64,000 nucleotides of DNA from Bacteroidaceae bacterium (GTDB taxonomy: Bacteria; Bacteroidota; Bacteroidia; Bacteroidales; Bacteroidaceae), in assembly GCA_017555585.1 (NCBI GenBank), contig JAFZGA010000002.1:62001-126000 (forward strand). Direction: 5' to 3'. The position numbers were made by a program, and so were the translations under genes. Shown one piece after another: positions 30,061 to 61,429 of the stretch (position 1 is its first letter; each line of letters opens with the position of its first letter). Under the pieces are notes generated by a model, which was not told the origin of the DNA, searched no databases, and saw only the letters and a list, made by a program, of their open reading frames with translations.

Positions 30061-31071
30061 ATGATAAGACCCGTAAAATTTGAAAGTCAGGATCGTCGTA
30101 TCAAGCAGATCCTCGCTGTACTTAACGAGAACGGTATCGCTTCTATCGAAGAGGCAAACGAAATTTGTGAGCAGTACGGTATCGACCCTTACAAGATCTG
30201 TGAGGAGACACAGCCTATCTGTTTCGAGAATGCAAAGTGGGCTTACGTTGTAGGTGCTGCTATCGCATTGAAGAAGGGTTGCTCAAACGCTGCTGACGCA
30301 GCAGAGGCAATCGGTCTTGGTTTGCAGGCATTCTGTATCCCAGGTTCAGTAGCTGACGACCGTAAGGTAGGTATCGGCCACGGTAACCTCGCAGCACGTC
30401 TTCTCCGCGAGGAGACAAAGTGCTTCGCATTCTTGGCAGGTCACGAGTCATTCGCAGCAGCTGAAGGTGCTATCAAGATTGCAGCTAAGGCTGACAAGGT
30501 ACGTAAGGAGCCACTCCGTTGTATCTTGAACGGTCTTGGTAAGGACGCTGCACAGATCATCTCACGTATCAACGGTTTCACATACGTACAGACAGAATTC
30601 GACTACTTCACAGGTGAGTTGAAGGTTGTACGCGAAATCGCTTATAGCGATGGTCCTCGTGCAAAGGTACGTTGCTACGGTGCTGACGATGTTCGCGAAG
30701 GTGTAGCAATCATGTGGAAGGAAGGCGTTGACGTATCAATCACAGGTAACTCAACTAACCCTACACGCTTCCAGCACCCAGTTGCAGGTACATACAAGAA
30801 AGAGCGCGTTCTCGCAGGCCAGAACTACTTCTCAGTAGCTTCAGGTGGTGGTACAGGCCGTACACTTCACCCAGACAACATGGCTGCAGGTCCAGCATCT
30901 TACGGTATGACAGATACTATGGGCCGTATGCACTCAGACGCTCAGTTTGCAGGTTCTTCTTCAGTTCCAGCACACGTTGAGATGATGGGCTTCCTCGGTA
31001 TCGGTAACAACCCAATGGTTGGTGCTACTGTTGCTATCGCAGTGGATATCGCTGGTGCATTGAGCAAGTAA
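30061..31071 (+). CDS. GGGtGRT protein; its 3' end is the attachment site of the island
   Basis: 336 residues of the GGGtGRT family, named for the motif seen here as SGGGTGRTLHP. Function unknown. The start at MIRPVKFE is chosen because AAGGAGG lies 7 bp upstream, one of very few strong Shine-Dalgarno sites in the window; an upstream in-frame start would overlap the NifU-like gene. The last 54 codons (from Met at 30907) recur three times downstream, so the present 3' end was probably supplied by element A. The reading frame is intact. Confidence 0.92.
   Translation: MIRPVKFESQDRRIKQILAVLNENGIASIEEANEICEQYGIDPYKICEETQPICFENAKWAYVVGAAIALKKGCSNAADAAEAIGLGLQAFCIPGSVADDRKVGIGHGNLAARLLREETKCFAFLAGHESFAAAEGAIKIAAKADKVRKEPLRCILNGLGKDAAQIISRINGFTYVQTEFDYFTGELKVVREIAYSDGPRAKVRCYGADDVREGVAIMWKEGVDVSITGNSTNPTRFQHPVAGTYKKERVLAGQNYFSVASGGGTGRTLHPDNMAAGPASYGMTDTMGRMHSDAQFAGSSSVPAHVEMMGFLGIGNNPMVGATVAIAVDIAGALSK
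30907..31071 (+). repeat. Attachment-site repeat, copy 1 (functional GGGtGRT gene tail)
   Basis: 165 bp coding for the last 54 residues plus stop. Homology to the other copies starts exactly at the ATGAC here (30907); the sequence to the left is unrelated between copies. It ends GCATTGAGCAAGTAATAT, shared with copy 4, unlike copies 2 and 3. Confidence 0.9.
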
Positions 31072-31627
31072 TATTCTTGATTTAGAATAGATTAGAGAGT
31101 TATCCTTTTTAGGGTGACTCTCTTTTTTGTTGCCCTATTCAATGACACCAAACCATAAACTTCAACACCACTACCCTAATGAAAGTTGTAATTTAAGGCT
31201 CAATTTTTCTTGTGACGGTATTAGCAGATTATACCATTATTTAACTCTAAAAATGCCACAAAAACAGATATTTTGTGACGGTTTTGTGACGGACTCAGAC
31301 ACCGTCACAAATGTGTAATGCACTCCTTTTTATATCTAATGAACGACCTCCTTTCTCTTTTGGTTAGCTTTGGCAAAAATAACCATTCATGCATTATCAA
31401 GCAATTTAATTAAATCCAACTTGATAACAATACTATATCTTTTTTAAGCATTTCAACTTACTGTATATTGTGGTATTTTGCAGGTTTTAAAACACCTAAA
31501 AAACAAAAATAAGAAATCTATTAACATAGAATATCCAACCATTATAATTCTTCATTTGGCAATGCATTAATCGCATAGTATAATATCAGCAGATGATATT
31601 ATTGTATAAATCTTTAAAACATGCTTT
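31072..31627. other. Left end of element A with arm-site-like repeats
   Basis: No gene. After the terminator comes a block (31130-31260) that recurs after copies 2 and 4. TTGTGACGG occurs three times in direct order (31210-31218, 31273-31281, 31284-31292) and once inverted (31301-31310). Such clusters are expected for arm-type binding sites of tyrosine integrases. The remainder to 31627 is A/T-rich. Confidence 0.65.
31093..31129 (+). terminator. Terminator after GGGtGRT gene (copy 1 type)
   Basis: Stem agagagt / actctct with inner tcc/ggg pairing and a T-run. Copies 2-4 of the gene tail each have a terminator at the same place. Confidence 0.7.
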
Positions 31628-31819
31628 ATGGAGAAATTAACGAAAAGAAAAAATGCAAGGTCAAAGGGTTACACACAACTTAAACCTAAAAGACGTAACG
31701 AGAAGCAAGAAGTTGCTTACATTCTCACTGATATAAAAGAAACTGTTGTTACTGAAAACTTCTACCAACCAATTCCTGTAAGTATTCTAAAGTATTATAT
31801 GCCTAAAGGGATGCTCTGA
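31628..31819 (+). CDS. Small basic hypothetical protein
   Basis: 63 residues, Lys/Arg-rich in the first half (MEKLTKRKNARSKGYTQLK). Not recognised. It is the only plus-strand gene in element A and is followed at once by a convincing terminator, which supports it as a real gene. Confidence 0.45.
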   Translation: MEKLTKRKNARSKGYTQLKPKRRNEKQEVAYILTDIKETVVTENFYQPIPVSILKYYMPKGML

Positions 31820-31860
31820 AAAAAGCCAACTTACCGTTATATGGGTAGGTTGGCTTTTTG
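31819..31860. terminator. Bidirectional terminator
   Basis: Stem aaaaagccaacttacc / ggtaggttggcttttt with one mismatch, between the small plus-strand gene and the convergent YiiX-like gene. Confidence 0.8.
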
Positions 31861-31863
31861 TGA

Positions 31864-32478
31864 TTATTTCACGTCTTCTAAGAAATCTGAATTGAATATA
31901 TCTACAGGAGCAACCGCATATTGTGCTTTGGTGATTCCTCGCTTCTTCATTGCCATTTCAATCTTTGGCAGTTTGTCTGTCCAAAGAATTAGATAGTCGC
32001 TCACTTTCTTGGGCTTGCACAACTCAATGCCTAATTGATTTTTATAGATGTCGTATATCAATTCTGAACAATAGTACTTGTCATTATCAAACCTAAAAGC
32101 CAAATCATAAGGTTTTCCAAGGTAACTTTTATATTTAATTTTGATGTTCTCTTTATTGGAACGCTTCAACCAATATTTGCTATCTACCCCACGAGCAATG
32201 AACTTATCCAATGGAGTAAGTACCAATGTTTTCAATGTTTCAAGAACATAAGGTTTCCCGTTCTTCATTACAATAATTCCGCAATGAGTAATTTTAGAAC
32301 GAGTAGCAATTTGAAGCAATGGAGATTGTTCTGATTGTGATGTTTGAAAAATCACATCCCCCTCTCTTATGTCCTTTATCGATTCTGTTTGGGCTGTAAA
32401 CGTTTCTGTTAGCATTGAACTAAACGGTAACGCAAGTATCAGTAAAATTATTCCTAATATTATAAGTATCTTTTTCAT
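31864..32478 (-). CDS. YiiX/YebB-like cysteine hydrolase (NlpC/P60 superfamily)
   Basis: 204 residues. N-terminal signal or anchor helix (residues 3-20), then a permuted papain-like domain with IREGDVIFQTS, the His in THCGIIV and the catalytic Cys in YYCSELIYDIY. YiiX-type enzymes cleave amide bonds in peptidoglycan peptides or lipids at the envelope. It is the last gene of a minus-strand series in element A, after a membrane protein and a TPR lipoprotein. Confidence 0.82.
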   Translation of the reverse strand: MKKILIILGIILLILALPFSSMLTETFTAQTESIKDIREGDVIFQTSQSEQSPLLQIATRSKITHCGIIVMKNGKPYVLETLKTLVLTPLDKFIARGVDSKYWLKRSNKENIKIKYKSYLGKPYDLAFRFDNDKYYCSELIYDIYKNQLGIELCKPKKVSDYLILWTDKLPKIEMAMKKRGITKAQYAVAPVDIFNSDFLEDVK

Positions 32479-32526
32479 AATTTTGTGTTATGCAAATAAT
32501 CAATAAAATTCAAGTAAAAACTTTTG

Positions 32527-33021
32527 CTATGCGTGTTTTTTGATAGTTCGTTTTATCAACCAATTAGTAAACAGAGCCAACAGATAAAGTACCACAAAAA
32601 TAATAAGATTTACAATATAGTACTCAGTCCAGCCTTTTTTATAATATGGCATATTTGTTGGAATGTCAAGATGTGTGCTTAAAGCATTAAGGTCATCAAA
32701 GCAAATTGCAAATGCTGTATCGCAATCCATATTGCCATATCTGTTGAACAAGAAAATGCCCAATAGCACAAACGGTACATTGTACAAAACAGTCAATATA
32801 AGCACCGCTTGCCTACGTGTTGTAATCCCTTGCCTCATTTTCTTTACCGCTACATAAATAACCGATAATGCAGATAGCATTAGCACTGCATATTGTAGGT
32901 ATAGATTGATGTAAACACAAGCTTCGTTGTATGTCCATCCAAACAGTTTGCCAAGCAGTGACATTATCTCACAACAGGCGAAAAAGATTAACGATACTAT
33001 GTAGAAAAGAATGTTTGTCAT
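32527..33021 (-). CDS. Four-helix membrane protein, unknown
   Basis: 164 residues with four predicted membrane helices (about 3-20, 35-58, 68-90, 130-152) and a short basic C-terminus. A loop with two cysteines (DCDTAFAICFDD) lies between helices three and four. No family recognised. Lies between the TPR lipoprotein and YiiX genes on the same strand. Confidence 0.65.
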   Translation of the reverse strand: MTNILFYIVSLIFFACCEIMSLLGKLFGWTYNEACVYINLYLQYAVLMLSALSVIYVAVKKMRQGITTRRQAVLILTVLYNVPFVLLGIFLFNRYGNMDCDTAFAICFDDLNALSTHLDIPTNMPYYKKGWTEYYIVNLIIFVVLYLLALFTNWLIKRTIKKHA

Positions 33022-33044
33022 TTATCTAAATAATCAATAGGATT

Positions 33045-33668
33045 CTAATATTCATTCTCTGTTGCATAGTAAAGTATAAGGTAATTCTCCAATTCTATAT
33101 TTGTTGAGTCTAATTGTAATGCTCTATTTGCATAATATCCCATTTCTTTATAAAAATTGTTTTCGTGGAACAAACGCACCGCACTCAAATAATTGTTTAC
33201 AGCCAAATCTTTTTTGCCTTGTTCCTCGAAAATCTCGGCAAGCCAAATATAGGGACGTGCATAACAAGGATTGCACTTGATAGCTTCGTTGTACGCATTG
33301 ATGGCTTCTACAGTATCTCCTTTAAATAAGAATAAACTTCCCATTTCTTGGTACAGTAATTGTGGCTTTTCTGATGATTGAATGCTATTTTTTAGCAATT
33401 GAATAGCTTTGTCATATTCCCTTTTGAAACCGTATGCTGTTGCATAGGAAAGTGCCATATTGTTCATTTTTACTTCCAAAGATTTCAATGAATCCAATGC
33501 AGAAAGCATCGCATCTCCCTCTTGCCTTTCTTGATGAAAAAGCAATGTGTCAATCATTTCTTGAATGAGAGTATCTTTATCTACGATGATTTTTTCTTTG
33601 TTACACGAAGCAAAAAGCGTACAGGCAAGTAGTGCGATTGTTAGTGATTTAAGTGTGTTTGTTCTCAT
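33045..33668 (-). CDS. Tetratricopeptide-repeat lipoprotein
   Basis: 207 residues with lipobox LFASC (Cys22) and about three TPR-like helix pairs (YDKAIQLLKNSIQSSEKPQLL, GDTVEAINAYNEAIKCNPCYARPYIWLAEIF, KDLAVNNYLSAVRLF). Probably an envelope-facing scaffolding protein. Forms a short minus-strand series with the membrane protein and the YiiX-like hydrolase (gaps of 23 and 48 bp). Confidence 0.75.
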   Translation of the reverse strand: MRTNTLKSLTIALLACTLFASCNKEKIIVDKDTLIQEMIDTLLFHQERQEGDAMLSALDSLKSLEVKMNNMALSYATAYGFKREYDKAIQLLKNSIQSSEKPQLLYQEMGSLFLFKGDTVEAINAYNEAIKCNPCYARPYIWLAEIFEEQGKKDLAVNNYLSAVRLFHENNFYKEMGYYANRALQLDSTNIELENYLILYYATENEY

Positions 33669-33894
33669 ATTTGTTTATTTTAAGCAATCTAGTGGTGTTG
33701 AATAGAATATATTAAAAAAAACCGTGGTATAAGAAATCCTACCAAGATAATTGATAGGATTCCTATAATGGTTCTTTTAATACATTTTTTCATATAATCA
33801 CTCTCCTCCACAATAGCCAATATGTTGATAAATGTTTTTCATTTAACAAAACCATAAGTTCAAATAAGTTAAATAGAGGGTTGCCACTCTTATT

Positions 33895-34260
33895 TTACTC
33901 AAGAAAATTTCTACCAATACGCAATGCTTCGTTTAGTGATATATTAGGTAATTTACATGCTTTACATACAAGCGTCCAATAGAAGGTTTCATTAGGAGAA
34001 ATATCTCCATCTACCCCCATCATAAAAACTAAGAGAGAAGCAAACAGTTCTTTTTTCTCAAAGTTCATTGATGATATAATTGGAGTTGCTTTATCGACAT
34101 CATATTCGGAAGATAAGTTCATTTCTTCTTCAGTAATACCAATTTTTGCCCCAATTATTGCTCCTAATTGAATTTCTGAATTTTCAACAACTCCGTCTGC
34201 CAATGCCATGTGTGAAAAATAATAATACATTGCAGCTTTTTCTTCTTTTGTGAAATACAT
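33895..34260 (-). CDS. TerB-like domain protein
   Basis: 121 residues, acidic and helical, with two acidic loops typical of TerB folds (MALADGVVENSEIQLG and FMMGVDGDISPNETF). TerB domains bind metals and occur in tellurite-resistance and phage-defence associated proteins. No other ter genes are near. Confidence 0.6.
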   Translation of the reverse strand: MYFTKEEKAAMYYYFSHMALADGVVENSEIQLGAIIGAKIGITEEEMNLSSEYDVDKATPIISSMNFEKKELFASLLVFMMGVDGDISPNETFYWTLVCKACKLPNISLNEALRIGRNFLE

Positions 34261-34343
34261 AATAATAAATTTTATTTCTTTGAAATGCTCAAAAAATGTT
34301 AGTAATTATTTTTAATTGAAAAGATAAATTCAAGATACAATAC

Positions 34344-34640
34344 TTATACTTTTAACATTAATACCTTAAAAACTTCATTATATATCTCCATATCTTTAAT
34401 TACGGGATTTTCTATTCCAACATACGTTAAACTTCCGTCGCGGTCATAAACAATACCGTTTGGGGCATGCCTACATACTCCCACAAGTAAACCAAATTTA
34501 TAAAAGTTTATTTTTTCAGCATCAATAACAACTTTTCCTATAGGGCATTGTTGTTTATAACCGTAAATTAATTCTTGTAACCAGACACAAGTACGTTGGT
34601 CTGAATATTGTACTCCTTCTGTTTTCTTTATCGTAATCAT
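34344..34640 (-). CDS. Hypothetical protein
   Basis: 98 residues, soluble, not recognised. It precedes a gap of 83 bp to the TerB-like gene on the same strand and follows the next upstream unknown gene by 4 bp, which suggests the two are co-transcribed. Confidence 0.5.
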   Translation of the reverse strand: MITIKKTEGVQYSDQRTCVWLQELIYGYKQQCPIGKVVIDAEKINFYKFGLLVGVCRHAPNGIVYDRDGSLTYVGIENPVIKDMEIYNEVFKVLMLKV

Positions 34641-34644
34641 AATA

Positions 34645-35040
34645 TTAAGAGAATTTAGGGTAAATCATATTAAATATTTCAATATTGTCTGGAACAGTGG
34701 GAGCAAAGATACCTTGATAGTCCAATTCCTTACCCCAGAAAGAACATTTGTAAGCTGAATCGTAGTAATAAATAAGATTACCATATTCTATATAGAAATT
34801 AGGTCCGAAATTGGGTATATAAGAATAGATACATCCTGAATATCCTTGTAACATAGGATTATAACATTTCCCAAATTCGATTTTATTCTTAAATATCTTG
34901 ATGCTTGGATTCTCGTTCTGAGCTAATATAATCCCATTTTCAATAGAACCAGAAAGGCACATTGCAGCAACCCTCGTAATAGACTTTACGGAAGAATCCA
35001 ATTGGATATTTATAGAATTAAGATAAAATCCGCCATTCAT
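34645..35040 (-). CDS. Hypothetical protein, possibly 5'-truncated
   Basis: 131 residues from the ATG at 35040; an in-frame TTG at 35064 is an alternative start, and the frame stays open to about 35100 without an ATG. Rich in Tyr, Asn and Gly with several cysteines (NIQLDSSVKSITRVAAMC), no recognised family. The unusual upstream inverted repeats directly abut its start. Confidence 0.45.
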   Translation of the reverse strand: MNGGFYLNSINIQLDSSVKSITRVAAMCLSGSIENGIILAQNENPSIKIFKNKIEFGKCYNPMLQGYSGCIYSYIPNFGPNFYIEYGNLIYYYDSAYKCSFWGKELDYQGIFAPTVPDNIEIFNMIYPKFS

Positions 35041-35064
35041 AGTATTCAATGTTATGCTCCCCAA

Positions 35065-35499
35065 TTCCCAGATGAAAGCGGATAAAAAAATAAGGTGTGG
35101 GAACTATATTTGCTTTATCCTTAGATTAGGTCTTCGCATTACCTTTAGCATAGATAAAACAATAGCAACCCACACCAAAGGTTATGTCAAAAGCCAATAA
35201 TGGCTGTACATACCAATGATGTGGTGCTACCGCTATCATCTTCATGCTAAAATTAAAGTTGCGAAGTTTAATCTAAGAAGATAATCTCAATAACACCTTT
35301 TTATAAAAAAGTCTTTCATACCGCCACTGCGGTACTGAATTATTGCAAATATAGATAAAAAATGGATAACCCAATCTAAATACAGTAATTTCTGTTTTTA
35401 ATCCTAATTCATGTCAATATCTATTACCGATAGATTACAACATTCGTTAGCATAAAAAAAACAAAGTGGCTAATCACTGAGAAAAGCCACTTTATAAAA
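35065..35499. other. Structured region with nested inverted repeats next to a small tyrosine recombinase
   Basis: No gene. ggtgtggg (35094-35101) pairs with cccacacc (35169-35176), extended by imperfect pairing. The next bases (35120-35137, cttagatta...cttcgc) pair with 35261-35277 (gcgaag...taatctaag). On the minus strand the first hairpin is followed by a T-run. It may be a terminator/small RNA or recombination sites; see findings. Confidence 0.5.
35463..35493 (-). terminator. Terminator of the small tyrosine recombinase gene
   Basis: Stem aaagtggct / agccacttt, followed on the minus strand by gtttttttt, 7 bp after the stop codon. Confidence 0.75.
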
Positions 35500-36087
35500 T
35501 CAGAAACTAAGACTATCATAAGTTTCTAAAATTTCTTCTTGCCTTAACCCTAAATATCGTTTAGTTATAGCAACAGAACTATGATTAAATAATTCCATGA
35601 GTTTAACTAATGCAAGTTCAGAATTTTCATTATTCATATTATAAACCTGTCGCCCAAATGTTTTTCTAAGTGAGTGGCAAGAAAAGTTATTTATCTTAAG
35701 CCGATACCTTTTCTTTATTTCCTTAAAAATAACGTTAATTCTTTGAATAGAAAAAACCGTTCCTTTTTGACTTACCAATATAGGTGCTTTATCCCCTATC
35801 GGCTTTATATGTTTATAACATTCTTCAATATGCTTCTGTAATTGCTGATTCAAACGAATGATTCTTTTTTTACCTGTTTTTTTCTCAAATATTGTAAATT
35901 CATTAGTCTTTAATATCTGATTCCAACGTAAAGCAAGAATATCAGATATTCGTAATCCTGTGAAACAGCCAAGTGCAACAAGAAGCGACATTTTATAATT
36001 TTCATCTTTTGCCAATTTCCTTATAAGGCTCATAGCAATTTCCCATTCTAAAAAATCGGCTGTTGTTGTAGAATATTTCAGTCCCAT
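35500..36087 (-). CDS. Small tyrosine-type recombinase (catalytic domain only)
   Basis: 195 residues, essentially only the catalytic domain. All active-site residues are present: Arg46 (TGLR), Lys70 (EKKTGKK), His138 and Arg141 (HSLRKTFG), His169 (LFNHSS), Tyr178 (KRYLGL). The length and lack of an arm-binding domain resemble FimB/FimE-type invertases rather than element integrases. It could act on the inverted repeats just downstream at 35094-35277, or be a resolution enzyme of element A. Confidence 0.85.
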   Translation of the reverse strand: MGLKYSTTTADFLEWEIAMSLIRKLAKDENYKMSLLVALGCFTGLRISDILALRWNQILKTNEFTIFEKKTGKKRIIRLNQQLQKHIEECYKHIKPIGDKAPILVSQKGTVFSIQRINVIFKEIKKRYRLKINNFSCHSLRKTFGRQVYNMNNENSELALVKLMELFNHSSVAITKRYLGLRQEEILETYDSLSF

Positions 36088-36116
36088 AATATTCAGTTTT
36101 GAAGATTAAAAAATAA

Positions 36117-36178
36117 AAGTGAATGTTCTTAAAAGCATCATCTTATTAAAGCATTGATACTCAACAGAACATTCACTT
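36117..36178 (-). terminator. Terminator of the DUF3871 unit
   Basis: 13-bp perfect inverted repeat (aagtgaatgttct / agaacattcactt) with a T-rich run on the minus-strand 3' side. Confidence 0.65.
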
Positions 36179-36184
36179 TGTTAA

Positions 36185-36313
36185 TTAGCGAATATTTGTA
36201 AAAACAATATACGCGATAAGCAACACCAAGAAAAAAGGCGGAAATGCGAAACACAAAACTACAACCGCTAAAATAATGATAACGGCTTTAATAATTAATA
36301 CAGTATCTTTCAT
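36185..36313 (-). CDS. 42-residue hydrophobic membrane miniprotein
   Basis: Opens MKDTVLIIKAVIIILAVVV and is almost entirely hydrophobic (VLCFAFPPFFLVLLIAY), ending TNIR. One long or two short membrane helices with a PP turn. It starts 2 bp after the DUF3871 stop codon and is followed by a terminator, so it is placed like a real translated gene. No family recognised. Confidence 0.5.
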   Translation of the reverse strand: MKDTVLIIKAVIIILAVVVLCFAFPPFFLVLLIAYIVFTNIR

Positions 36314-36315
36314 AA

Positions 36316-37338
36316 TTAATCAATGAACCATTTGTATTTTTCGTCACCATGTAATGCCATGTTTATGCCTACCGCCATTTCTGTAGCGTTTAAAGAACGG
36401 TCTAAGAACGAATCTATATAACTGCTCTTATTAGCACCTGTTAGAAGATTGTAGAACTTCCACATATTTAGTTCTCCACCTGTGCCACAGAAATTTTCAT
36501 CGTTTATATACGATTTAGCAACAGAATTTATTTGTGTATCTGTCAGCAACATTCTTGGCAATCGTTTTTGCATAATATTAGGCAAACATTGATATAACCT
36601 CATTCTACCTAAAATTTGGCAAAATTGGTGTTCGCTCATCGTTGTATTCCCAAGAGTTTGCAATAAATGGATTTGTTTGGCTGGGTTAAAGTTGTTAAAT
36701 AGTTCCAATGCACCATTATAGAGTTCTGAGACATTGGAAACTTTCAAATCGTCCTTATATCCGTCCGTAAAAATGCACATATTGCAACACACTTGATTTT
36801 TAAAGCCTATAGCCAATTTAAAAAGTTCTGGACTTTTCTTAGAATAAAGATTCATTTGGTTATAGGCTCTTACTCCAACTATTGAAAGGTTGAGTTTATT
36901 ACCCTCAATCGTTTCATAAATGGTTGGTACATCAATACTGAAAGCACATCTTTCATAATAAATAGTTTTTTCACTCTCCAACAGTTCATTTGCTTTCTTA
37001 TGAATAGCTTCGGGGGTTCTTCCCTTAATCACATGCGATACGCGGATTTTTGGAGAAGACACAGTTTCACCATTGAAGAAATCATTTGTAGCATCACAAA
37101 CCGCATCAATAAATTGGGAATGGTTTATTGTCAATTCATTATCTTTGGCAAATACAGGAGTTATACACTCATTAGCTAAATGGTTAATCCCCACTTCCAC
37201 TGTATTAGCTTCAATAAAATGCAAATCCTTTGGTAAGCATTGGTTATTTTCTTCCAAAACAACTGTTGCATCGTCTGCGAATTGAGCTAAATTCACTTTT
37301 TCTCTTGCCTGTACAGGCATTAAAATCAAATCTCTCAT
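36316..37338 (-). CDS. DUF3871 family protein
   Basis: 340 residues recognised as DUF3871, found on Bacteroides mobile elements, from its overall pattern (RVSHVIKGRTPEAI, AIGFKNQVCCNMCIFTDGYK, EHQFCQILGRMRLYQ). Resembles DUF932-like phage/plasmid proteins in layout; function unknown. It forms a unit with the 42-residue membrane miniprotein. Confidence 0.75.
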   Translation of the reverse strand: MRDLILMPVQAREKVNLAQFADDATVVLEENNQCLPKDLHFIEANTVEVGINHLANECITPVFAKDNELTINHSQFIDAVCDATNDFFNGETVSSPKIRVSHVIKGRTPEAIHKKANELLESEKTIYYERCAFSIDVPTIYETIEGNKLNLSIVGVRAYNQMNLYSKKSPELFKLAIGFKNQVCCNMCIFTDGYKDDLKVSNVSELYNGALELFNNFNPAKQIHLLQTLGNTTMSEHQFCQILGRMRLYQCLPNIMQKRLPRMLLTDTQINSVAKSYINDENFCGTGGELNMWKFYNLLTGANKSSYIDSFLDRSLNATEMAVGINMALHGDEKYKWFID

Positions 37339-37698
37339 AATGATAAAATTTAATAGTTAATAATTCTTTTTATATCAAATATGAGGAGGGGAATAAAAGG
37401 GTAATGCACCACCAAGTTAAAGTATCTATGTAATTTTAGAGGATAGATAATTAAAGGAGGGGGGATTGAATAAAGTACCTCGGTGTTATTTTCTGTAAAA
37501 CTGTAAATAGATAATGTTGGTAATAAGTACGCATATTATCAGTAACTGCTAATGAGGTATGAATTTTCAGTTGGGGTTATATGTACCTTAATTCAGATGA
37601 TTTTTTACAGGATTCCAAATCAGTCATTAACAGGCGATATTTTCCTGTACCCATTAGAAGGTAAGAGCCATAAGTAATTGCTTACCTACGGCTCTTTA
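37339..37698. other. Gap between DUF3871 and HTH genes
   Basis: 360 bp without a supported gene. It carries purine-rich ggaggggg-type tracts around 37382-37396 and 37455-37466 of unknown meaning and, at its right end, the terminator of the HTH gene. Confidence 0.5.
37664..37695 (-). terminator. Terminator of the HTH gene
   Basis: Stem agagcc / ggctct with inner taag/cttac pairing, 4 bp after the minus-strand stop codon. Confidence 0.6.
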
Positions 37699-38361
37699 TC
37701 AGTCCACAATAATATCTAATTTGGCTGGCTGTACGGCTTTGGCTTCCCTTTTTCGGAAATCTGGTCGAGGTGCATTAGGTATTAGGAAGATGTCATTTCT
37801 CAGAATATGTATGCCTTTTTGGTCTCTACGGATGTAGCCTTTAGATTCCGCTTCGGATAGATAATTTGAAATGGTGGATTTGCCTATCTTTAGCTCATTA
37901 GCTAATTGGTTTTGACTGTAAAGGGTGGTGTTTGTACCGTTCAGACACTTGCATTTCAGCAATATCAGAAATCCTTTAAGCTGTCTGCTTATGGGTTCAT
38001 TATGTAATAACTCGGTAATAAAAACATAATGCTCGGTGTTGAGTTTATATCTACACCTTTGGAATCTTCCATATCGTCCTTTAATGTTGCTCTTAATAAC
38101 TGTAAGTAGCCCACAAGATTGGAAATGATATAGCCAATCACTTATTTGGTCTGTGTCTTTTATTCCGTACTCATTAGCTAAAGTCTCTTGCTTTATGTCT
38201 GAGTAATAGGTTTTCAAATCTGCGTTGAGTGCAAGACAGTAGAACAGGTAAGCTTCTTTAGGCTTCAATTTGCCAGCAATGTGTTCGGTTATTCTGATGT
38301 ACTTTGGCATTTGAGTTGAGTTGTTTTGGTAGGCATTGGAGTCTCCTCTATAATTTTCCAT
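37699..38361 (-). CDS. Helix-turn-helix protein, replication-initiator-like
   Basis: 220 residues with two winged-helix-like units: ETLANEYGIKDTDQISDWLYHF (about 62-83) and NQLANELKIGKSTISNYLSEAESKG (about 145-170). The two-domain layout resembles element-borne replication initiators or regulators of the DnaD/RepA-like class. Located between DUF3871 and a conserved element protein, as in other Bacteroides elements. DNA binding is inferred; its target is unknown. Confidence 0.65.
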   Translation of the reverse strand: MENYRGDSNAYQNNSTQMPKYIRITEHIAGKLKPKEAYLFYCLALNADLKTYYSDIKQETLANEYGIKDTDQISDWLYHFQSCGLLTVIKSNIKGRYGRFQRCRYKLNTEHYVFITELLHNEPISRQLKGFLILLKCKCLNGTNTTLYSQNQLANELKIGKSTISNYLSEAESKGYIRRDQKGIHILRNDIFLIPNAPRPDFRKREAKAVQPAKLDIIVD

Positions 38362-38502
38362 AATAGGTATTAGTATTTAGGTATTAGTAAGTAACCCCTC
38401 TGAATAGAACACCCCACACCCCCTAATTTGAACACTGCCTTTTAGCGTATTATAGGACGGTTTTGGGGATTCTATCAGCCTTTAATAATCAATATAGGTC
38501 AA

Positions 38503-38555
38503 ACCAAAGTTGGAGAAAACAGAAGCCTACCTCTCACATAGGCTTCCGCTTTGGT
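38503..38555 (-). terminator. Compound hairpin after the 38559 gene
   Basis: Inner stem gaagccta / taggcttc and outer accaaag / ctttggt; it sits 4 bp after the minus-strand stop codon. Confidence 0.6.
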
Positions 38556-38558
38556 TCA

Positions 38559-39500
38559 TTAAGCAGCCGGAGCAAACTGTCTATTGCGTTCCAATTCCTT
38601 TATCCAAGATATAAGAACGGTTACAATGCAGGTTTCTTTCTCACCGCAACGCATAAGCTTTGTTCGCTCAACGTCATTAGCAGGGATTGTGTCTAATGCC
38701 TTATGAAGCTGTACAAGGGTATATCCCTCAGCCTTTTGCAAGTAGTTAAGTGCTCTGATTGTATATCTCTTCTTAGCCTCATTAACACCAAAGGTTAAGC
38801 AAACTTTCTGATGAAGCTCTTTAGCTTCTGCGTAGCTTCTTCCGAGAGTACACATATCCTTAGGCTTGTAGCCTGTGGTCATCATGCTGGTTGTTACACC
38901 CTTAACCTGTACATCAAGATAAAGCTGTGCAGTGCTCGCTGGCATGTTTGTTTCTACAGCCAAGTCGTAGATAGCATTACAAACCTCATCGTTTGTTGCA
39001 AGGGCAGCAACACCCATTTTTTCCTTTGAGGTCAAGCCCCTGCTGAACAGGTTGGTTGTGCCTGTTACCTCGGCAAACTCCTGTACATCAGCAAATGAGT
39101 GTACTTCTACAGTCTTGAGTACCTCATCTATCGAGAAGCGATAATAGGTGTCTGCTGTTTCTACAGGAATGTAGACATTGGGTGTTCCTGTTGGGATTTC
39201 ATTACCTTCGTAGTCAAAAAGAGCAATTTCTGCTGAGTAAAAAATTTCAGATGTTGAAACGTGGTAGATTACGTTCAACATTTTCGACTTATCAATCATC
39301 TCAAGTTGCTTCATCTGAGAAGCCTTAAGGCAGTCCATAGAGTATTTATGGCGAGCAAGGATAATCTCCTGTACTTCGCCTTTAATCTTGGCTTTAAAAG
39401 TCTTGAACTGAACCATTTCTACACTTGCAGTAGCTACTGCGTTATTGCTCACTGTTGCGATTGAGTTCGCAGGTTTTGCTTTTTTTTCGTTTTCCATTTT
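38559..39500 (-). CDS. Conserved element protein, unknown
   Basis: 313 residues from MENEKKAKPANS; an ATG at 39533 would add 11. N-terminal 25 residues are low-complexity Ala/Asn/Val. No family name recognised, though such proteins are frequent next to HTH genes on Bacteroidales elements. Soluble, no catalytic signature. Its upstream region (39501-39843) has no gene and holds GTACGCA repeats. Confidence 0.6.
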   Translation of the reverse strand, partial: KMENEKKAKPANSIATVSNNAVATASVEMVQFKTFKAKIKGEVQEIILARHKYSMDCLKASQMKQLEMIDKSKMLNVIYHVSTSEIFYSAEIALFDYEGNEIPTGTPNVYIPVETADTYYRFSIDEVLKTVEVHSFADVQEFAEVTGTTNLFSRGLTSKEKMGVAALATNDEVCNAIYDLAVETNMPASTAQLYLDVQVKGVTTSMMTTGYKPKDMCTLGRSYAEAKELHQKVCLTFGVNEAKKRYTIRALNYLQKAEGYTLVQLHKALDTIPANDVERTKLMRCGEKETCIVTVLISWIKELERNRQFAPAA

Positions 39501-39843
39501 ATTAAACTTTTTAATGATTAAACTTCTTATCAATCTCCAAAGGGCGCCCTTGTTGTTGATTGGTGGTGCAAGCTCATTGTTTGGGATTGATGGTTCTTGA
39601 TTCCCACTTACTGTTCTTCGGTGTGAACTCCTCTTGCTTCTTTGGAATGAATCTTCAACTCACCTTTTCAATGATAACTTGTCCTTTTGACAATGCAAAG
39701 GTACTGCTACATCAATGTGTAGCAAAGGATTTTTCTTGAAGCCCATGTGTGTAGAAAAAGTAGCATTTTTCAGTACGCAAAAAAATGCGTACCAAAAGTT
39801 TCACCTTTTCAGTACGCATTTATATTATAAAATATTACTTAGA
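39501..39843. other. Gap with GTACGCA repeats
   Basis: 343 bp without a supported gene. GTACGCA at 39773-39779 and 39812-39818 and its inverse TGCGTAC at 39786-39792; the second and third form a terminator hairpin, the first and second a 20-bp palindrome that could be an operator of the leftward gene. Confidence 0.5.
39784..39820 (-). terminator. Terminator of the 39844 gene
   Basis: Stem aatgcgtac / gtacgcatt with a seven-T run on the minus-strand 3' side. Confidence 0.75.
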
Positions 39844-40788: not shown

Positions 40789-40817
40789 TACATTAGTTAT
40801 TTATTGGCAAAAATAGA

Positions 40818-40857
40818 AAGAAATTCTCGCTTGTAGTAATACAGGTGAGAATTTCTA
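40818..40857 (-). terminator. Terminator of the integrase gene
   Basis: 10-bp inverted repeat (agaaattctc / gagaatttct) followed by a T-rich run on the minus strand. Confidence 0.65.
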
Positions 40858-50895: not shown

Positions 50896-50909
50896 AAGCA
50901 GACGGTTTC

Positions 50910-52300: not shown

Positions 52301-52936
52301 TTAGTCACAAAACTCTTTCTTCAATCTCATAACAGTAAAAATTCCAACGCCTTCAATCTTGGCGATATTCCTCACCGGATATCCTCTCTTCAGTAGCTTG
52401 ATAACTCCGGCATACTGCTCCGCTTTCTCTTCTTTCGATTTGCGGTAGCCGGTCTTTCTACCAAGTTTGCCGCCACCTCGTTTATAGAGTTCACGGCCAC
52501 TGTCAAGACGAAATTTTATATTCTCTCGTTCCATCTGGGCTACAGTGCCAAGAATAGCTATAAAGATTGTAAGGAAAGGATGCTCTTTACCTGAATCGTC
52601 AAATATGCTAAGGTTCTCTTTCTGAAAATAGACATTCAGTTTGTGTTCCTTACATAGCATAACGTTTTTGAGTACCTCGTCTACATCTCTACCAAGACGA
52701 GAGAGTTCTGACAAGAGTAGGATTTTTACATTATTGAAAATGCAGTATTCCAAGCATTCAGTGAGAATTGGTCTTTCTGCATTTTTCTTTGCTCCTGATA
52801 TTTTCTCTTCGTATATCTTTACGATTGTGTGGTTTTTCTGTTTGGCGAGAATTTTCAAGTCCTCAATTTGGCGTTCATTACTCTGCCGTTCTCCTAAACT
52901 TGAAACTCTCGAATAGATTACTGCTGTTTTGTTCAT
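52301..52936 (-). CDS. Serine recombinase (resolvase/invertase family)
   Basis: 211 residues with the resolvase catalytic domain: YSRVSS with nucleophile Ser12, SELSRLGRDVDEVL, and the E-helix (FIAILGTVAQMERENIKFRL), then a C-terminal helix-turn-helix (YPVRNIAKIEGVGIFTVMRL). Catalyses site-specific inversion or resolution through a Ser-DNA link. Located between the efflux locus and the ATPase genes, at a change in base composition, which fits a composite-element junction. Confidence 0.9.
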   Translation of the reverse strand: MNKTAVIYSRVSSLGERQSNERQIEDLKILAKQKNHTIVKIYEEKISGAKKNAERPILTECLEYCIFNNVKILLLSELSRLGRDVDEVLKNVMLCKEHKLNVYFQKENLSIFDDSGKEHPFLTIFIAILGTVAQMERENIKFRLDSGRELYKRGGGKLGRKTGYRKSKEEKAEQYAGVIKLLKRGYPVRNIAKIEGVGIFTVMRLKKEFCD

Positions 52937-53153: not shown

Positions 53154-54494
53154 ATGGAGAAGTTGCTTAAAAGAAAGATAGATGCTTATTTGGTTGATTG
53201 GAAGAATAATCCAGATAGAAAACCTCTCATCATAAAGGGTGCACGCCAAATTGGAAAGACGCACTCCATAGAATGGTTCGCCAATAAAAATTACGCAAAT
53301 GTGATACAAATCAACTTTGTGGAACAAAAGAAATACAAAGCGATATTTGATGACGGATTTGAGGTTGATATGATTCTCAAAAACATCTCGCTACTGAACC
53401 CTAAATTCAAATTTGTACCTGGTGAAACAATATTCTTCTTTGATGAATTGCAGGCTTGTCCTAATTGTGCAACGTCATTGAAATTCTTTAAACTTGATGG
53501 CAGATTCGATGTTATCTGTTCCGGTTCTTTGATGGGTATCAACTATAAAGAGATTGAATCCAATAGCGTGGGCTATAAGGAAGACTACGAAATGCATTCA
53601 ATGGATTTTGAGGAGTTCCTTTGGGCAAAGGGATACAATGAGGATTTTATTGAGGACCTTTATAAGCATATGCTGGAAGTAAAGCCTCTTGGACAATTGC
53701 AGATGGATATTCTTATGGAATTGTTCCGTGACTATGTAACTATAGGTGGTATGCCCGAGGTTGTAAACACATACATCAAAAACAAAAACTTTAGCGGCAC
53801 ATTGGCTATTCAAAAGCAGTTGCTAAAAGACTACGAAGAGGACATTACAAAATATGTAGAAGGATTGGATAAAGCAAAAGTAAAGGCTGTATACAACCAT
53901 ATATCAACATTTCTGGCTAAGGAAAACAAGCGTTTCCAAATTACAAAGATTGGCAAGAATGCACGCAACAGAGATTACATCGGTTGTGTAGAATGGCTTT
54001 CCGATGCCGGTGTAATCAACATATGCTATTGTATGAACCAGCCCGAGCTTCCTCTTAAAGGGAACTACGACCCCAAACTATATAAAATATATTTCAAAGA
54101 CACAGGACTTTTGATTGCCTCACTTGACGAGGAAGCTCAAGAAGATTTGAGAGCCAATAAGAATTTGGGCACATATAAGGGGGCTATTTATGAGAATATA
54201 GTAGGAGATATGCTTGTAAAACAGGGATATAACCTCTACTATTATAGCAATGACAGACCTTCAATAGAGATGGACTTTTTTGTAAGAGATGCCGACTCGC
54301 TTATACCAATAGAAGTAAAAGCCAACGATGGAGCAACGGCATCACTGAACAACCTATTGAGAGAAGATAAATATCCCGATGTAAAATACGGTATCAAGTT
54401 GGGATATAAGAATATCGGTTTCAATGGCAAATTCTATACATTCCCATACTTCCTTACTTTCCTGTTAAAGAGGTTTGTAGGAGGAAGGGAATAA
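53154..54494 (+). CDS. AAA ATPase with DUF4143 domain
   Basis: 446 residues: AAA_14 domain with Walker A GARQIGKTH (29-37), Walker B IFFFDELQAC and a C-terminal DUF4143 nuclease-like domain containing the EMDFFVRD...IPIEVKAND motif typical of PD-(D/E)XK-like folds. These stand-alone ATPases are abundant in Bacteroidales; function unknown. Single gene in element B. Confidence 0.88.
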   Translation: MEKLLKRKIDAYLVDWKNNPDRKPLIIKGARQIGKTHSIEWFANKNYANVIQINFVEQKKYKAIFDDGFEVDMILKNISLLNPKFKFVPGETIFFFDELQACPNCATSLKFFKLDGRFDVICSGSLMGINYKEIESNSVGYKEDYEMHSMDFEEFLWAKGYNEDFIEDLYKHMLEVKPLGQLQMDILMELFRDYVTIGGMPEVVNTYIKNKNFSGTLAIQKQLLKDYEEDITKYVEGLDKAKVKAVYNHISTFLAKENKRFQITKIGKNARNRDYIGCVEWLSDAGVINICYCMNQPELPLKGNYDPKLYKIYFKDTGLLIASLDEEAQEDLRANKNLGTYKGAIYENIVGDMLVKQGYNLYYYSNDRPSIEMDFFVRDADSLIPIEVKANDGATASLNNLLREDKYPDVKYGIKLGYKNIGFNGKFYTFPYFLTFLLKRFVGGRE

Positions 54495-56087: not shown

Positions 56088-56165
56088 CATACATAAATAA
56101 AACAATAGAGCAAACTTCTAAACATCACATCTGCAGTGAACACGTTACGAAAGGTAAAGGAACTA

Positions 56166-56397
56166 TGTTTGGATACTGAAAAATAAGCAAACGGCAAATA
56201 TATTTTTCATATAGAATTTGTATTTTCAATTCGGTTATTTTTCACTTCAAAGGGTTTCGATTGCCTTACGACGTACCCACTGTACGAGTACTTACATATT
56301 TATCGACCGGTTTTTCTGCAAACCCGGCTTCATACGGGTAAGACGGTCAGTTACTTAGGGTCGGTCAGAATGCATCCGACCCGTTGTAACGACCCAA
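56166..56397 (+). repeat. Right-end repeat of element B
   Basis: 232 bp, same length as and homologous to 60939-61170, both ending at a gene-tail copy. Its last 120 bp contain cgacc/gacggt-type motifs. Confidence 0.85.
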
Positions 56398-56562
56398 ATG
56401 ACCGATACAATGGGCCGTATGCACTCAGACGCTCAGTTTGCAGGTTCTTCTTCAGTACCGGCACACGTTGAGATGATGGGCTTCCTCGGTATCGGTAACA
56501 ACCCAATGGTTGGTGCTACTGTTGCTATCGCAGTTGATATCGCAGGTGCACTTTCTAAGTAA
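56398..56562 (+). repeat. Attachment-site repeat, copy 3
   Basis: 165 bp; encodes the same 54 residues as copies 1 and 2 with only synonymous differences from copy 2 (ACA/ACC, CCA/CCG, GCT/GCA). Confidence 0.92.
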
Positions 56563-56587
56563 TTAGCTAATAACTAATTCTTTATAC

Positions 56588-56618
56588 AGAGACATCCTTT
56601 CGGGGATGTCTCTTTTTT
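56588..56618 (+). terminator. Terminator after tail copy 3
   Basis: agagacatcc / ggggatgtctct with T-run, identical to that of copy 2. Confidence 0.85.
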
Positions 56619-58008: not shown

Positions 58009-59763
58009 TTATTTCCCAAAAATAAATAAAAGTTTATTAAAGAAATTTGAAATAGGCTTTTCGCGATCATAAATTTCACCTAAAGCAGATAAAGCCTCTT
58101 TGGTTTCAGACTTTTTATACCATTTCACAGCCTCACTATATGAGCGCTTTACCCCTTGTCCAAATCTATAACAGGTCGCTAAACAAAACATTGCATCCTT
58201 GTGTCCGTGTTCTGCAGCTCTGCGATACCATTTAATGGCTTCATCATATGACTGTTCAACTCCATCACCGTATTCAAAACATCTACCTAGTTTATGTTGA
58301 GCTTCTGCACAATCTAATTCAGCAGCTAATTTGTAATATCTAAAAGCTTCATTGTATTGTTTATCTATATATGCACTATTTGCAAAATCCATTATTAATA
58401 AAACATCATCTACGCTGTCGTAAAAAATCAAATTACAAATATTATTAACTGTAGCCAATCCCTTTTTGCTTAATCTGAACTTAATAATGTGAGATATGAT
58501 AATATCGTGATTATAAGTATTTATCTGTAATAGCTTAGCATCACTGAGTGGAATTACATACTCCTTACCTACCGGTACTTCCAGCTGTAAAAGATCTATA
58601 TCTGCATCAATAAATAGCTTATTAAGAAGATTTGTGTTATTATTGTTTTTTACAATTCTATTAAGAATGCTCCAATCCAATGGAATTTCATCACCTTTAT
58701 ATAATGTATCACAAACAGCATATAACGATGTATATATTGTATTTACAAACCCTTTTTTCCAAGTTTTTCCATTATCTTCTGTGACAAGCCCACGTATATT
58801 TGTTGAAAGAGTAAAATCAAGTCTTATAAACTTATTTTTCTTGTTTACAACAACATTCTTAATCTTAAGGTGTGATAATTTCTTATATCCATAATTAATG
58901 AGTTTTTCAACCTTAATATCGAATGGATCGTTATTAATACTAATGTCTGTATTTATACAATCTAAACATTTACAACGATCTTTACCTATTATAACTTGGC
59001 AAGTCCATTCATGACCTTCGACAAATTCTCCTTTAAGAAAAATTTCACTATAACTAACATCTATGTCAAGTAATTTTATGAAACGTTCTGTCTTTTCATC
59101 TTGTTCTTCATTATAAAAGTAAGGTTCAATACATATGTAGAAATTTTTACCAATAGAACACTTTTGAATTAAGTTACCAAAAGTTTCTAGATTAAAATAA
59201 TCGTCTGCTAAATCTATTACATTAGAAAAAATATGAAGAGTAGGGATAGATTCGTCTATGATTATGTCATTTGTTGTTAAATCATCAAAACCTTTAAGAA
59301 TGGTGATTATTTCAGCTTTTGGAAAAAAGCAAGAAACGTGCAAGGCAGCTCTTTTAAGAGCTAATTCAGATGGTTCTATTAATATTACCCTTCGCACGTT
59401 TTGGCTTTTGCCTGTTTCGCGTAAAAAATCCGCATAGCAAATTGTTCCAATTGCTTGACCACAACCATAATCTATAATATCAATAGTCGAATTTTCTGCA
59501 AAGTCTTTGGGAAGATGTTTAAAAGCATGTTGAAGTTTTGCTTCATGCATTAAACCAAGTGCATGGAGATACATATTTAGTTCAGGCTCGCTTTGTAGTT
59601 TGCACACTCCATGTTGAATACTATCATATACCTCTTTGTTTAAATCAGAGGGTAGTCTTTTTGTGAATTCAATAGAAACGGAGCGAATTGAACGAAAATC
59701 AATATTCTTTATTCGTTCAATTGTATATGCATAATTGGTGCCTTTCTCAATATATTTAGCCAT
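58009..59763 (-). CDS. Methyltransferase-Sel1 repeat fusion protein
   Basis: 584 residues. N-terminal class I SAM-dependent methyltransferase domain with motif I DYGCGQAIGT (98-107) and an acidic motif II (VILIEPS, about 126-132); a middle domain of unknown type with the pair of cysteines KCLDC (near 264); C-terminal Sel1-like TPR repeats (about 460-565: YGDGVEQSYDEAIKWYRRAA, FGQGVKRSYSEAVKWYKKS). Starts 2 bp after the upstream DUF1848 gene, so the two are coupled. Substrate unknown; Sel1 repeats suggest protein-protein contacts. Confidence 0.78.
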   Translation of the reverse strand: MAKYIEKGTNYAYTIERIKNIDFRSIRSVSIEFTKRLPSDLNKEVYDSIQHGVCKLQSEPELNMYLHALGLMHEAKLQHAFKHLPKDFAENSTIDIIDYGCGQAIGTICYADFLRETGKSQNVRRVILIEPSELALKRAALHVSCFFPKAEIITILKGFDDLTTNDIIIDESIPTLHIFSNVIDLADDYFNLETFGNLIQKCSIGKNFYICIEPYFYNEEQDEKTERFIKLLDIDVSYSEIFLKGEFVEGHEWTCQVIIGKDRCKCLDCINTDISINNDPFDIKVEKLINYGYKKLSHLKIKNVVVNKKNKFIRLDFTLSTNIRGLVTEDNGKTWKKGFVNTIYTSLYAVCDTLYKGDEIPLDWSILNRIVKNNNNTNLLNKLFIDADIDLLQLEVPVGKEYVIPLSDAKLLQINTYNHDIIISHIIKFRLSKKGLATVNNICNLIFYDSVDDVLLIMDFANSAYIDKQYNEAFRYYKLAAELDCAEAQHKLGRCFEYGDGVEQSYDEAIKWYRRAAEHGHKDAMFCLATCYRFGQGVKRSYSEAVKWYKKSETKEALSALGEIYDREKPISNFFNKLLFIFGK

Positions 59764-59765
59764 GA

Positions 59766-60851
59766 TTATTTGTCTGTGATTGTTTCTGCAAATGGACTTT
59801 TTTTGTGTTGTTGCCAGTTGCTTACTGCAGTTTCCTTACTTGTATTGGCATAGCAGTACTCGCAAAGGTGAGGACAGGTGTTATACTCACCAATATCTTT
59901 TGATTTCATACAGCCACAAAATTCTCTCTGTCCTTTATCTTTGTTACTCTTGTTTATTATTGCATACTCCCCATTATCAAGAAGAATGGCATCTTGTGGA
60001 ATGGCTGGTGATTCTTCCATTGCGAAGAGATCCTGTTGAACAACATGGGGCTGCAATATTTCAGCATTAAGGAATTTCATCAGTTCCGGTGAGCGATAGC
60101 CCAAACGGACTATAAGCTTGTCATCGACACAATGATTGTGTTTAATACCGAATTGCTCAATATCGATCTTTTCGCCACAGGTTGCAAGTTCATACCCCCA
60201 CTTCTTGTTCAACTCTGCAAGTTTTGACGCGAACTCCATCATAGAGGACTCATCCCATTCTTTATATCGGATATTGTTCTTTTCAAGATTTGCCTTCACT
60301 TTACGATATGAAGCAATATCTGCAAAACTGAAAACAAGTTTCTCTGTATATCCATAGAGACTATCACCAATAAATTCAATTTTACGGAGCAAATCATCAA
60401 CACCTATAGTTTCTGTAAGAATAAGAGGATCAAAACGCCATATGACAGCACCTTTGCCAAGTTTCTCCACTAAAAGTTTGAATGTCTCAATTCTTTCCGT
60501 AATAGGCCTGACTGCTTTTTCTAGTCTTTCCTGCTCGTAATCATTGAGAGTGTATTGTATATAGCAAGCAATACCTTTTTTTTTCAAATCGTCTATGTGA
60601 CTTAAAATAGGACGAGGATTCTTTGACCAGAACACAATAAACTTGGTATCTTCATAGGATACATAAGACTTAACCCCATTAAAAGGATTAGTCCAAGCTG
60701 AATACCCCTTATTCAGCCTATGGAAGAACCAATCCGAATAAAATGCAGGTATATCTGTACTGCGACTCGCAGAAACTACAACAGGAAATGTTGCTTTTGC
60801 AACGGTTCCGTTATCGAGTACAATAGTTCTATCTTCTTGTTTTTTCGCCAT
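59766..60851 (-). CDS. DUF1848 protein with C-terminal Cys-rich motif
   Basis: 361 residues of the DUF1848 family, TIM-barrel-like. Conserved features: SASRSTDIPAFYSDW, FIVFWSKNPRP, YIQYTLNDYE, IWRFDPLI; C-terminal cysteines CGCMKSKDIGEYNTCPHLCE-YCYAN that could bind an Fe-S cluster, as in spore-photoproduct-lyase-like proteins. No canonical CxxxCxxC radical-SAM start motif. Start at MAKKQEDRT. Possible RNA or nucleoside modification enzyme; not proven. Coupled to the methyltransferase-Sel1 gene. Confidence 0.82.
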   Translation of the reverse strand: MAKKQEDRTIVLDNGTVAKATFPVVVSASRSTDIPAFYSDWFFHRLNKGYSAWTNPFNGVKSYVSYEDTKFIVFWSKNPRPILSHIDDLKKKGIACYIQYTLNDYEQERLEKAVRPITERIETFKLLVEKLGKGAVIWRFDPLILTETIGVDDLLRKIEFIGDSLYGYTEKLVFSFADIASYRKVKANLEKNNIRYKEWDESSMMEFASKLAELNKKWGYELATCGEKIDIEQFGIKHNHCVDDKLIVRLGYRSPELMKFLNAEILQPHVVQQDLFAMEESPAIPQDAILLDNGEYAIINKSNKDKGQREFCGCMKSKDIGEYNTCPHLCEYCYANTSKETAVSNWQQHKKSPFAETITDK

Positions 60852-61170
60852 ATATTTTATACTCTTACTGCAAATATATCGATTTATTCGATGTAATGAC
60901 AAATGAACTTTAGAAAGTTTTTAATTGGTTTAAATAAATGTTTGGATACTGAAAAATAAGCAAACGACAAATATATTTTTTATATAGAATTTGTATTTTC
61001 AATTCGGTTATTTTTCACTTCAAAGGGATTCGATTGTCTTACGACACACCCACTGTGCGAGTCTTAACTCATTTAGCGACCGTCATTTACGAGTTGCCGG
61101 TTTCTTAGGGATAAGATGGCCAGGTACTTAGGGACGGTTTGAATGCAAACGCCCCACAGTACTAGCCCAA
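60852..61170. other. Promoter-proximal region and right end of element C
   Basis: Contains the divergent upstream region of the DUF1848 gene and the 232-bp right-end repeat; no gene. Confidence 0.55.
60939..61170 (+). repeat. Right-end repeat of element C
   Basis: Homologue of 56166-56397 with equal length; both begin tgtttggatactgaaaaata and abut a gene-tail copy. More diverged in the last 120 bp. Confidence 0.85.
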
Positions 61171-61429
61171 ATGACAGATACAATGGGCCGTATGCACTCA
61201 GACGTTCAGCTAACTTTGTTTTCCTCCTTCTCGCTCGGCAAAACAAGCAAGTTTCTTTTGCGCTCGCTCGTGCGTCGGTTCGCAGGTTTTCTCAGTACTA
61301 CCACACACGCCAAGATGATGGTTCCTTAAGTATCGGTGACAACCTGGGTGGTTGGTGCTCCAAAAAGACAAGGATGCCCAACAGAGTTGGGCTATCGCAG
61401 TTGATATCGCTGGCGCATTGAGCAAGTAA
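61171..61429 (+). repeat. Attachment-site repeat, copy 4, degenerate
   Basis: 259 bp with recognisable ends (start atgacagatac, end GCATTGAGCAAGTAATAT) but with two insertions of about 65 and 30 bp and many substitutions that destroy the reading frame. The 3' end matches copy 1, not copies 2 and 3. Confidence 0.8.

Follow-up and report, generated by a model that had tools for sequence, protein, structure and literature searches.

Why should the end of one protein-coding gene be repeated several times in the DNA that follows it? The question is raised by a 64,000-nucleotide (nt) stretch from a Bacteroidaceae bacterium (assembly GCA_017555585.1, contig JAFZGA010000002.1, positions 62,001 to 126,000), hereafter called the window. 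Its GGGtGRT gene (30061..31071, plus strand; PF14057, E 3.7e-192), described as iron-sulphur-related, is followed by an array of units separated by copies of the gene's own last codons. We consider it very probable (about 93%) that a family of IntCTnDOT-type tyrosine integrases in Bacteroidales is dedicated to the 3' end of this gene and uses it as attachment site (attB), at which elements integrate and stack.

Repeated gene tails and the integrase beside them

The last 165 nt of the gene (54 codons and the stop codon, 30907..31071) recur at 42223..42387 and 56398..56562, and a fourth, degraded copy interrupted by repeat-like inserts lies at 61171..61429, all on the plus strand. Across the 165 nt, the gene and the second copy agree at 157 positions, the gene and the third at 154, the second and the third at 162. 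The first three tails thus differ pairwise at 3 to 11 positions (gene and second copy at 8, gene and third at 11), and every difference is synonymous when codons 2-54 are compared. Past the stop codon, the likeness of copies 2 and 3 extends over the terminator as well (98.6% over 221 nt). Between copies 1 and 2 it takes in a further 180 nt of element end (83.7% over about 400 nt). As such identity extends over hundreds of bases, the likeness of the tails is not due to chance, and the recurrence at 42,223, 56,398 and, degraded, 61,171 that a sequence-only reading of the window had noticed is confirmed.

These tails divide the region into units. Tail 1 is taken as the left attachment site (attL) of element A (30907..42222), tail 2 with its terminator (42223..42443) as the junction of A and B, and tail 3 with its terminator (56398..56618) as the junction of B and C. 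The insert-broken tail 4 is followed by a terminator and a further element end (61536..61695, plus strand), which makes this the place of a fourth unit, now decayed, besides A, B and C. Element A, which adjoins the gene, is probably the last arrival, and the others would have preceded it. The sequence-only reading had also given every tail a common start at ATGAC and a terminator behind it. This holds for the first three tails of the window, but a start at the ATG is not a rule: in relatives the homology sets in some 12-16 nt ahead of the tail, at nt 2 or near nt 14. Likewise, its statement that the intervals carry an integrase stands for A and fails for B and C.

The integrase of A (40880..42196, minus strand) has arm-binding, SAM-like and catalytic domains (PF17293, PF13102 and PF00589). 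Its open reading frame starts 26 nt from tail 2, and a first internal ATG follows some 105 nt later. TGLS is present in each of the four integrases aligned, and from this motif a serine is read at the position of the first catalytic arginine. A structure search with the integrase profile returned only XerA and IntI4, both weakly. For B and C, a tyrosine-recombinase profile gave no match, none of the four scanned C proteins is a recombinase (one Sel1-repeat protein, one DUF1848 protein, two without family), and no element-coded integrase was found beside their junctions. Judged by their sequences, B and C may be remnants, or units mobilisable by others.

Arm-like repeats mark several of the unit ends. 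The terminator and left end of A (31093..31310, plus strand) contain arm-like repeats TTGTGACGG at 31210, 31273 and 31284 on the plus strand and at 31302 on the minus strand; another lies in the right end of A (42124..42132, minus strand). Three TTGCGACGG repeats occupy the left end of B (42526..42608, plus strand), and TTGCGACGG occurs at 61653 in the fourth unit. In the whole window TTGYGACGG has ten matches against 0.70 expected, nine of them inside element ends: A has them at either end, B at its left end, and the fourth unit has one too. A repeat of this type is absent from the left end of C. B, which carries the left-end repeats of A, could be moved by A's integrase. The right ends of B (56165..56397) and C (60938..61170), both on the plus strand, are 84% alike.

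Next, we searched for relatives of the integrase irrespective of site, in a genome collection and in viral contigs. The genome collection yielded 34 loci, 24 of them at 51-97% identity (two already known, L116 being G016 and L124 being G120). A GGGtGRT tail stood 106-395 nt from the integrase match in 23 of these 24, that is, in all 23 testable ones: at the 24th, L122, the contig starts 374 nt before the match, so that it could not be judged. Among remote or fragmentary relatives a tail was present in 0 of 9, and one partial relative of 45% identity (L142) had one. The viral contigs gave 11 loci, nine at 53% identity or more; three of the nine begin within 27 nt of the match and were left out, and the remaining six all had the tail, two of them with an integrase identical to one counted among the genome loci. 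Integrase L122 is of Bacteroidales type on a contig binned as Gastranaerophilales, which is likely mis-binned. One contig filed as viral (IMGVR_UViG_2898051414_000005; L183, L185) holds two elements in tandem, each with its own integrase.

In whole-genome counts, at least two tails were present in 19 of 20 integrase-carrying genomes (21 loci submitted, 20 genomes counted). An order-wide sample contained a tail match in 78 of 393 genomes, with extra copies in five (the window's own, G487, G438, G542 and G605). Without G000 and G487, 76 tail-bearing genomes remain that are not known to carry the integrase, and only three of these have at least two tails (Fisher p 5e-16 against 19/20; the two sets may overlap). 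The search of Bacteroidales that the sequence-only reading had proposed was positive: Bacteroides, Phocaeicola, Mediterranea and Rikenellaceae all have intact GGGtGRT genes with this integrase behind them and a duplicated tail beyond it. Parabacteroides is among the genomes whose second tail is on another contig. The isolate genome of B. salyersiae has a tail array at 394394, 406001 and 410598.

The integrases occur in two opposite layouts. In the clade of the window's integrase (six loci, 85-97% identity) the integrase stands at the displaced tail, 106-146 nt from it; at the other 17 loci (51-59%) it lies 332-395 nt behind the GGGtGRT gene or, on one contig, behind a tail at the very start of that contig. 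Both layouts are found in a single contig of RGIG7712 (L120, L123). Where integrase and tails share a contig, the interval is mostly 10-14 kb, with three at 24.1, 28.1 and 29.9 kb and that of G120 at 28.5 kb. Near-identical integrases occur in B. salyersiae, P. coprophilus, Mediterranea and G487, the last from another family. The label Bacteroides requires seven changes on the integrases, the shuffled mean being 6.8, and more than one change is by itself no proof of transfer. As far as these sequences tell, the integrases do not follow host genus.

Chimeric genes and the probable point of exchange

According to the mechanism we propose, the attP site of the element would carry a spare copy of the last 54 codons together with the terminator. 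Integration would link the head of the host gene to the tail of the element, and the previous tail would end up on the element's far side (attR). Because the host head is joined to the element's tail, both the GGGtGRT protein and its terminator would be kept; and because each displaced tail can serve again as a site, elements would stack. They may also excise. In the window, the head of the GGGtGRT gene would then be the host's and its tail that of element A.

Comparison of related elements in different hosts brings out the chimeric nature of these genes. L132 and L133 represent nearly the same element in two hosts: their 600-nt gene heads are 89% identical, their tails 98% and the next 70 nt 100%. 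The corresponding values are 80, 95 and 94% for L132 and L134 and 77, 93 and 91% for L134 and G487. Less similar elements do not show this pattern (for example 90, 86 and 70% for L132 and L131). In the compared sequences, evidently, tail and terminator travel with the element and the gene head follows the host. Element A itself has a counterpart in G016, where the shared pieces have 88-92% DNA identity and the host flank 72-77% (a single 79-nt piece reaches 81%, and the region of the target gene 88%).

The position of strand exchange can be narrowed down from three sides. The last tail difference between L132 and L133 is at nt 33, with none from nt 34 on. The gene copy of G016 equals the G002 and G024 genes over the first 40 nt, and its displaced tail differs at nt 12, 28-30, 33 and 36. 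In the displaced tails that were read, finally, the homology starts no later than about nt 14, in some cases already ahead of the tail. On these grounds the exchange most likely takes place to the right of tail nt 33-36.

Over eleven tail pairs we counted 89 synonymous and 8 other differences; L132 and L134 were left out, as their second tail is cut by the end of the locus. Such an excess is expected if selection tests the element tails whenever they complete a gene.

Competing explanations and precedents

Could the tails have been copied by segmental duplication or homologous recombination, with no site-specific recombinase? The lack of an own tyrosine integrase in B, C and the smallest units would suit this explanation. 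It is nevertheless extremely improbable, since the left edge of the copied stretch is fixed per element class, the integrase relatives keep to the tail, the intervals are mostly unrelated, and arm-like repeats stand at the ends of A and B. It is very unlikely, too, that displaced tails are kept by selection for a function of their own, either as the source of a 54-residue peptide made from the in-frame ATG or as a stock of alternative ends for the gene. Tails 2 and 3 do have intact frames with only synonymous changes, as the ratio of 89 to 8 would also suggest, but selection on the element tails, whenever these come to complete a gene, would give the same pattern; moreover, inserts break the displaced tails in many species, and some lack the ATG.

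An integron-like cassette system, in which the tail would be a common site and one integrase would insert many small integrase-less cassettes in trans, deserves more credit, and we still hold it rather unlikely. In its favour, genomes of the window's genus contain tail-bounded units of about 0.25-2.6 kb with few or no genes, five of seven proteins scanned from them match the first five families listed for these units below, and an integrase relative of at least 94% identity is present in just 2 of 44 genomes of the genus. With 36.6 bits, however, the integrase falls well short of the IntI cut-off of 265 bits, and its domains are of the IntCTnDOT type; no attC-like site was recognised at the tails by eye, no attC search having been made; and decay of larger elements, as in tandem accretion, explains small units as well. 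A wider idea may be put forward tentatively, as possible rather than probable: the GGGtGRT gene could be a cassette platform, at which one integrase family inserts small integrase-less defence units in trans, each with its own gene end, so that the C-terminus is swapped each time; the elements themselves would be a vehicle of anti-type VI arrays between families.

Several observations weigh against our own reading of the GGGtGRT 3' end as the attB of a dedicated integrase family. The proteins of element A that were scanned (two of them without family) include no recognisable relaxase or conjugation protein. In the stretches read, a tyrosine integrase is lacking from B, from C and from the genus's small units, so that we only infer their mobility. 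One integrase genome (G631, P. coprophilus) has a single tail, Alistipes RGIG7366 (G619) has two tails listed and no whole gene, and in several genomes the gene and the second tail are on different contigs. The data for the window and its genus are largely metagenome assemblies, and G016 is perhaps a mixed bin. In these assembled sequences neither a circular form, nor an empty site in the same strain, nor a transfer was seen; other genomes do have GGGtGRT genes for which no extra tail is listed.

The closest precedent, and a precise one, is prophage e14, which sits in icd of E. coli K-12 and has a 165-bp tail of 54 residues differing at 12 nt and 2 residues (PMC11148124, PMC2973815). Both systems combine insertion in the 3' part of a conserved enzyme gene with an element-borne tail, a displaced old tail and mostly synonymous differences. 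Unlike e14, the present elements use another gene in another phylum, form tandem arrays, occur in several genera and families, and carry an array and defence-like genes rather than a prophage. Stacked units on one site, the older ones with att sites and without integrase, are also described for tandem accretion and cis-mobilisable elements (CIMEs; PMC5704250); target and element family are new to us, and, as said, A has no recognised relaxase or conjugation gene.

With the IntCTnDOT subgroup (CTnDOT, NBU1, Tn4555) the integrase shares the three domains and, with CTnDOT, the serine at the expected first arginine (PMC8138268). The GGGtGRT family differs from CTnDOT-type integrases in keeping to one protein gene. 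Sites of the CTnDOT type are short or lie inside tRNA genes. A tRNA attachment site was rejected here, the window having no tRNA.

Searches of the open-licence literature on GGGtGRT, DUF3871, recombinase-associated acquired interbacterial defence (rAID) with integrase, and Bacteroidales hotspots turned up no account of this site, in agreement with the sequence-only reading, which knew of none. New to us are the target, the dedicated IntCTnDOT-like integrase family with its two layouts, the rAID-like cargo, and the small integrase-less units bounded by tails across the genus. For elements common to gut Bacteroidales, named isolates included, the address is now fixed, and an integrase dedicated to it is at hand together with natural att sites. 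Counting gene tails offers a simple in silico handle for such islands, and the att pair could become a precise docking site in Bacteroidales.

Contents of the array and its variability

We then examined what the units carry. In element A, six co-oriented short genes of 98-207 amino acids and 31-35% guanine plus cytosine (GC), one encoding a Peptidase_C92 and one a TPR protein (31864..35064, minus strand), form a rAID-like cargo array behind a short tyrosine recombinase that consists of the catalytic domain only (35500..36087, minus strand; PF00589, E 1e-20; phrog_216). The working definition in PMC12247911 describes rAID as a tyrosine recombinase, homologous to BF9343_RS08045, upstream of at least two co-directional genes with GC below 41%, and the paper terms rAID biogenesis an area of active research; element A agrees with this definition in gene order and GC, and is a testable vehicle for such arrays. 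Unlike in rAID, the array rides on a GGGtGRT-targeting element. The genes of rAID systems code for orphan type VI immunity proteins; a Pfam scan of the six proteins gave no immunity family. A conserved intergenic motif, another rAID feature, was looked for by eye, and a similar stretch precedes two of six genes in the window and one of seven in G016.

The short recombinase is present at 13 of 26 distinct integrase loci, several of which are cut by contig or locus ends. As a general part of the hotspot it was rejected: among 21 matches listed in 201 family genomes, only that of the window is near a listed tail. Five others share a contig with a tail hundreds of kb or more away; for the rest, the genome has its listed tails on a different contig or has none listed. 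Since these recombinases are mostly away from the GGGtGRT gene, the GGGtGRT element is one rAID-like vehicle among others.

The array is preceded, on the side of the short recombinase, by a leader (35062..35360, minus strand) that is conserved in nine elements. A helix of 7-9 pairs is kept in all nine despite changing letters; arms crossed between elements give a mean of 3.4 pairs, and none of 100000 permutations reaches the observed sum. RNAalifold predicts 40 other pairs, 11 of them changed on both sides. In Rfam the window, leader included, has no match at the gathering threshold, with three sub-threshold matches for the leader. The leader may function as RNA, or else be a recombination site that folds.

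The backbone of A, all on the minus strand, further comprises a DUF3871 protein (36316..37338), a helix-turn-helix protein resembling replication initiators (37699..38361; HTH_36, phrog_270 replication initiation) and two genes without family (38559..39533 and 39844..40788). A DUF3871 homologue occurs at 16 of the 26 distinct integrase loci, several of those 26 being cut short.

The left end of element B contains a small open reading frame (42636..42905, minus strand); three further genomes of the genus (L082, L085, L087) have a homologue behind the GGGtGRT gene or behind a tail. The main cargo of B is an ABC export operon encoding an FtsX/MacB permease, an ABC ATPase, an HlyD-like protein and an outer-membrane efflux protein (43506..49298, minus strand), together with a sigma-54 response regulator and a histidine-kinase-like protein (49522..52139, plus strand). 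B also encodes a serine resolvase/invertase (52301..52936, minus strand; PF00239) and an AAA_14/DUF4143 ATPase (53154..54494, plus strand). Element C carries a Sel1-repeat and a DUF1848 protein (58009..60902, minus strand). Of nine proteins submitted to PADLOC, only the ATPase (candidate PDC-S01) and the DUF1848 protein matched strongly, two others weakly. A homologue of the ATPase with 91% protein identity stands directly behind the GGGtGRT gene in G605, from another family. In GC, B (44.3%) exceeds A (33.5%) and C (32.6%), and contains the export and two-component operon at 43506..52139; from its higher GC, B may be composite.

In the window's genus, 29 contigs were read with the gene tail in place. 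A further downstream tail fragment was found in 17, in one of them weakly (E 0.049). The other 12 have none, but eight of these contigs end within 5 kb. The gene content downstream of GGGtGRT differs among most species. G012, G016 (contig C31) and G002 have a common right flank, and G002 contains about 2.6 kb extra before that flank, bounded by tail remnants. The same tails around an unvarying interval would have spoken against a hotspot; content varying by species, and a common flank with and without insert, leave that claim standing.

The seven proteins scanned from the small units comprise AbiEii, DUF6088, Abi_2, AAA_14/DUF4143 and a PD-(D/E)XK-type nuclease, besides one HATPase_c and one without a match. 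Ten proteins were scanned from the 28.5-kb element of G120. Two are transposases, and others are a resolvase, a D12 methyltransferase and an annealing protein of the Sak type; no relaxase or conjugation gene was among them. By these family matches, some element genes look like defences against rival bacteria or phages.

Upstream of the target lies a NifU-like host gene (29346..30047, plus strand; Pfam NifU_N below cut-off, TIGR03419 weak). The GGGtGRT protein found no match among solved structures. The G016 assembly holds two full GGGtGRT genes on contigs C10 and C31 (L096, L094), possibly as a mixed bin. Five contigs end inside the GGGtGRT gene (G018:C40, G021:C11, G028:C25, G033:C68, G037:C65), and the repeated tail could cause these breaks.

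At L097 and L098 a second tail follows only 90-100 nt after the gene tail. These units are about 240-270 nt long and consist of a tail, its terminator and a short end, which in several species resembles TGACCGCCTTGTCATAATTTG. At 61210..61510 of the window and at L066, L071, L073, L094 and L100, short repeats with inverted ends split displaced tails at recurring points. These repeats of several species appear to be a family resembling miniature inverted-repeat transposable elements that piles up in dead tails; one of them often sits just after the GGGtGRT stop codon.

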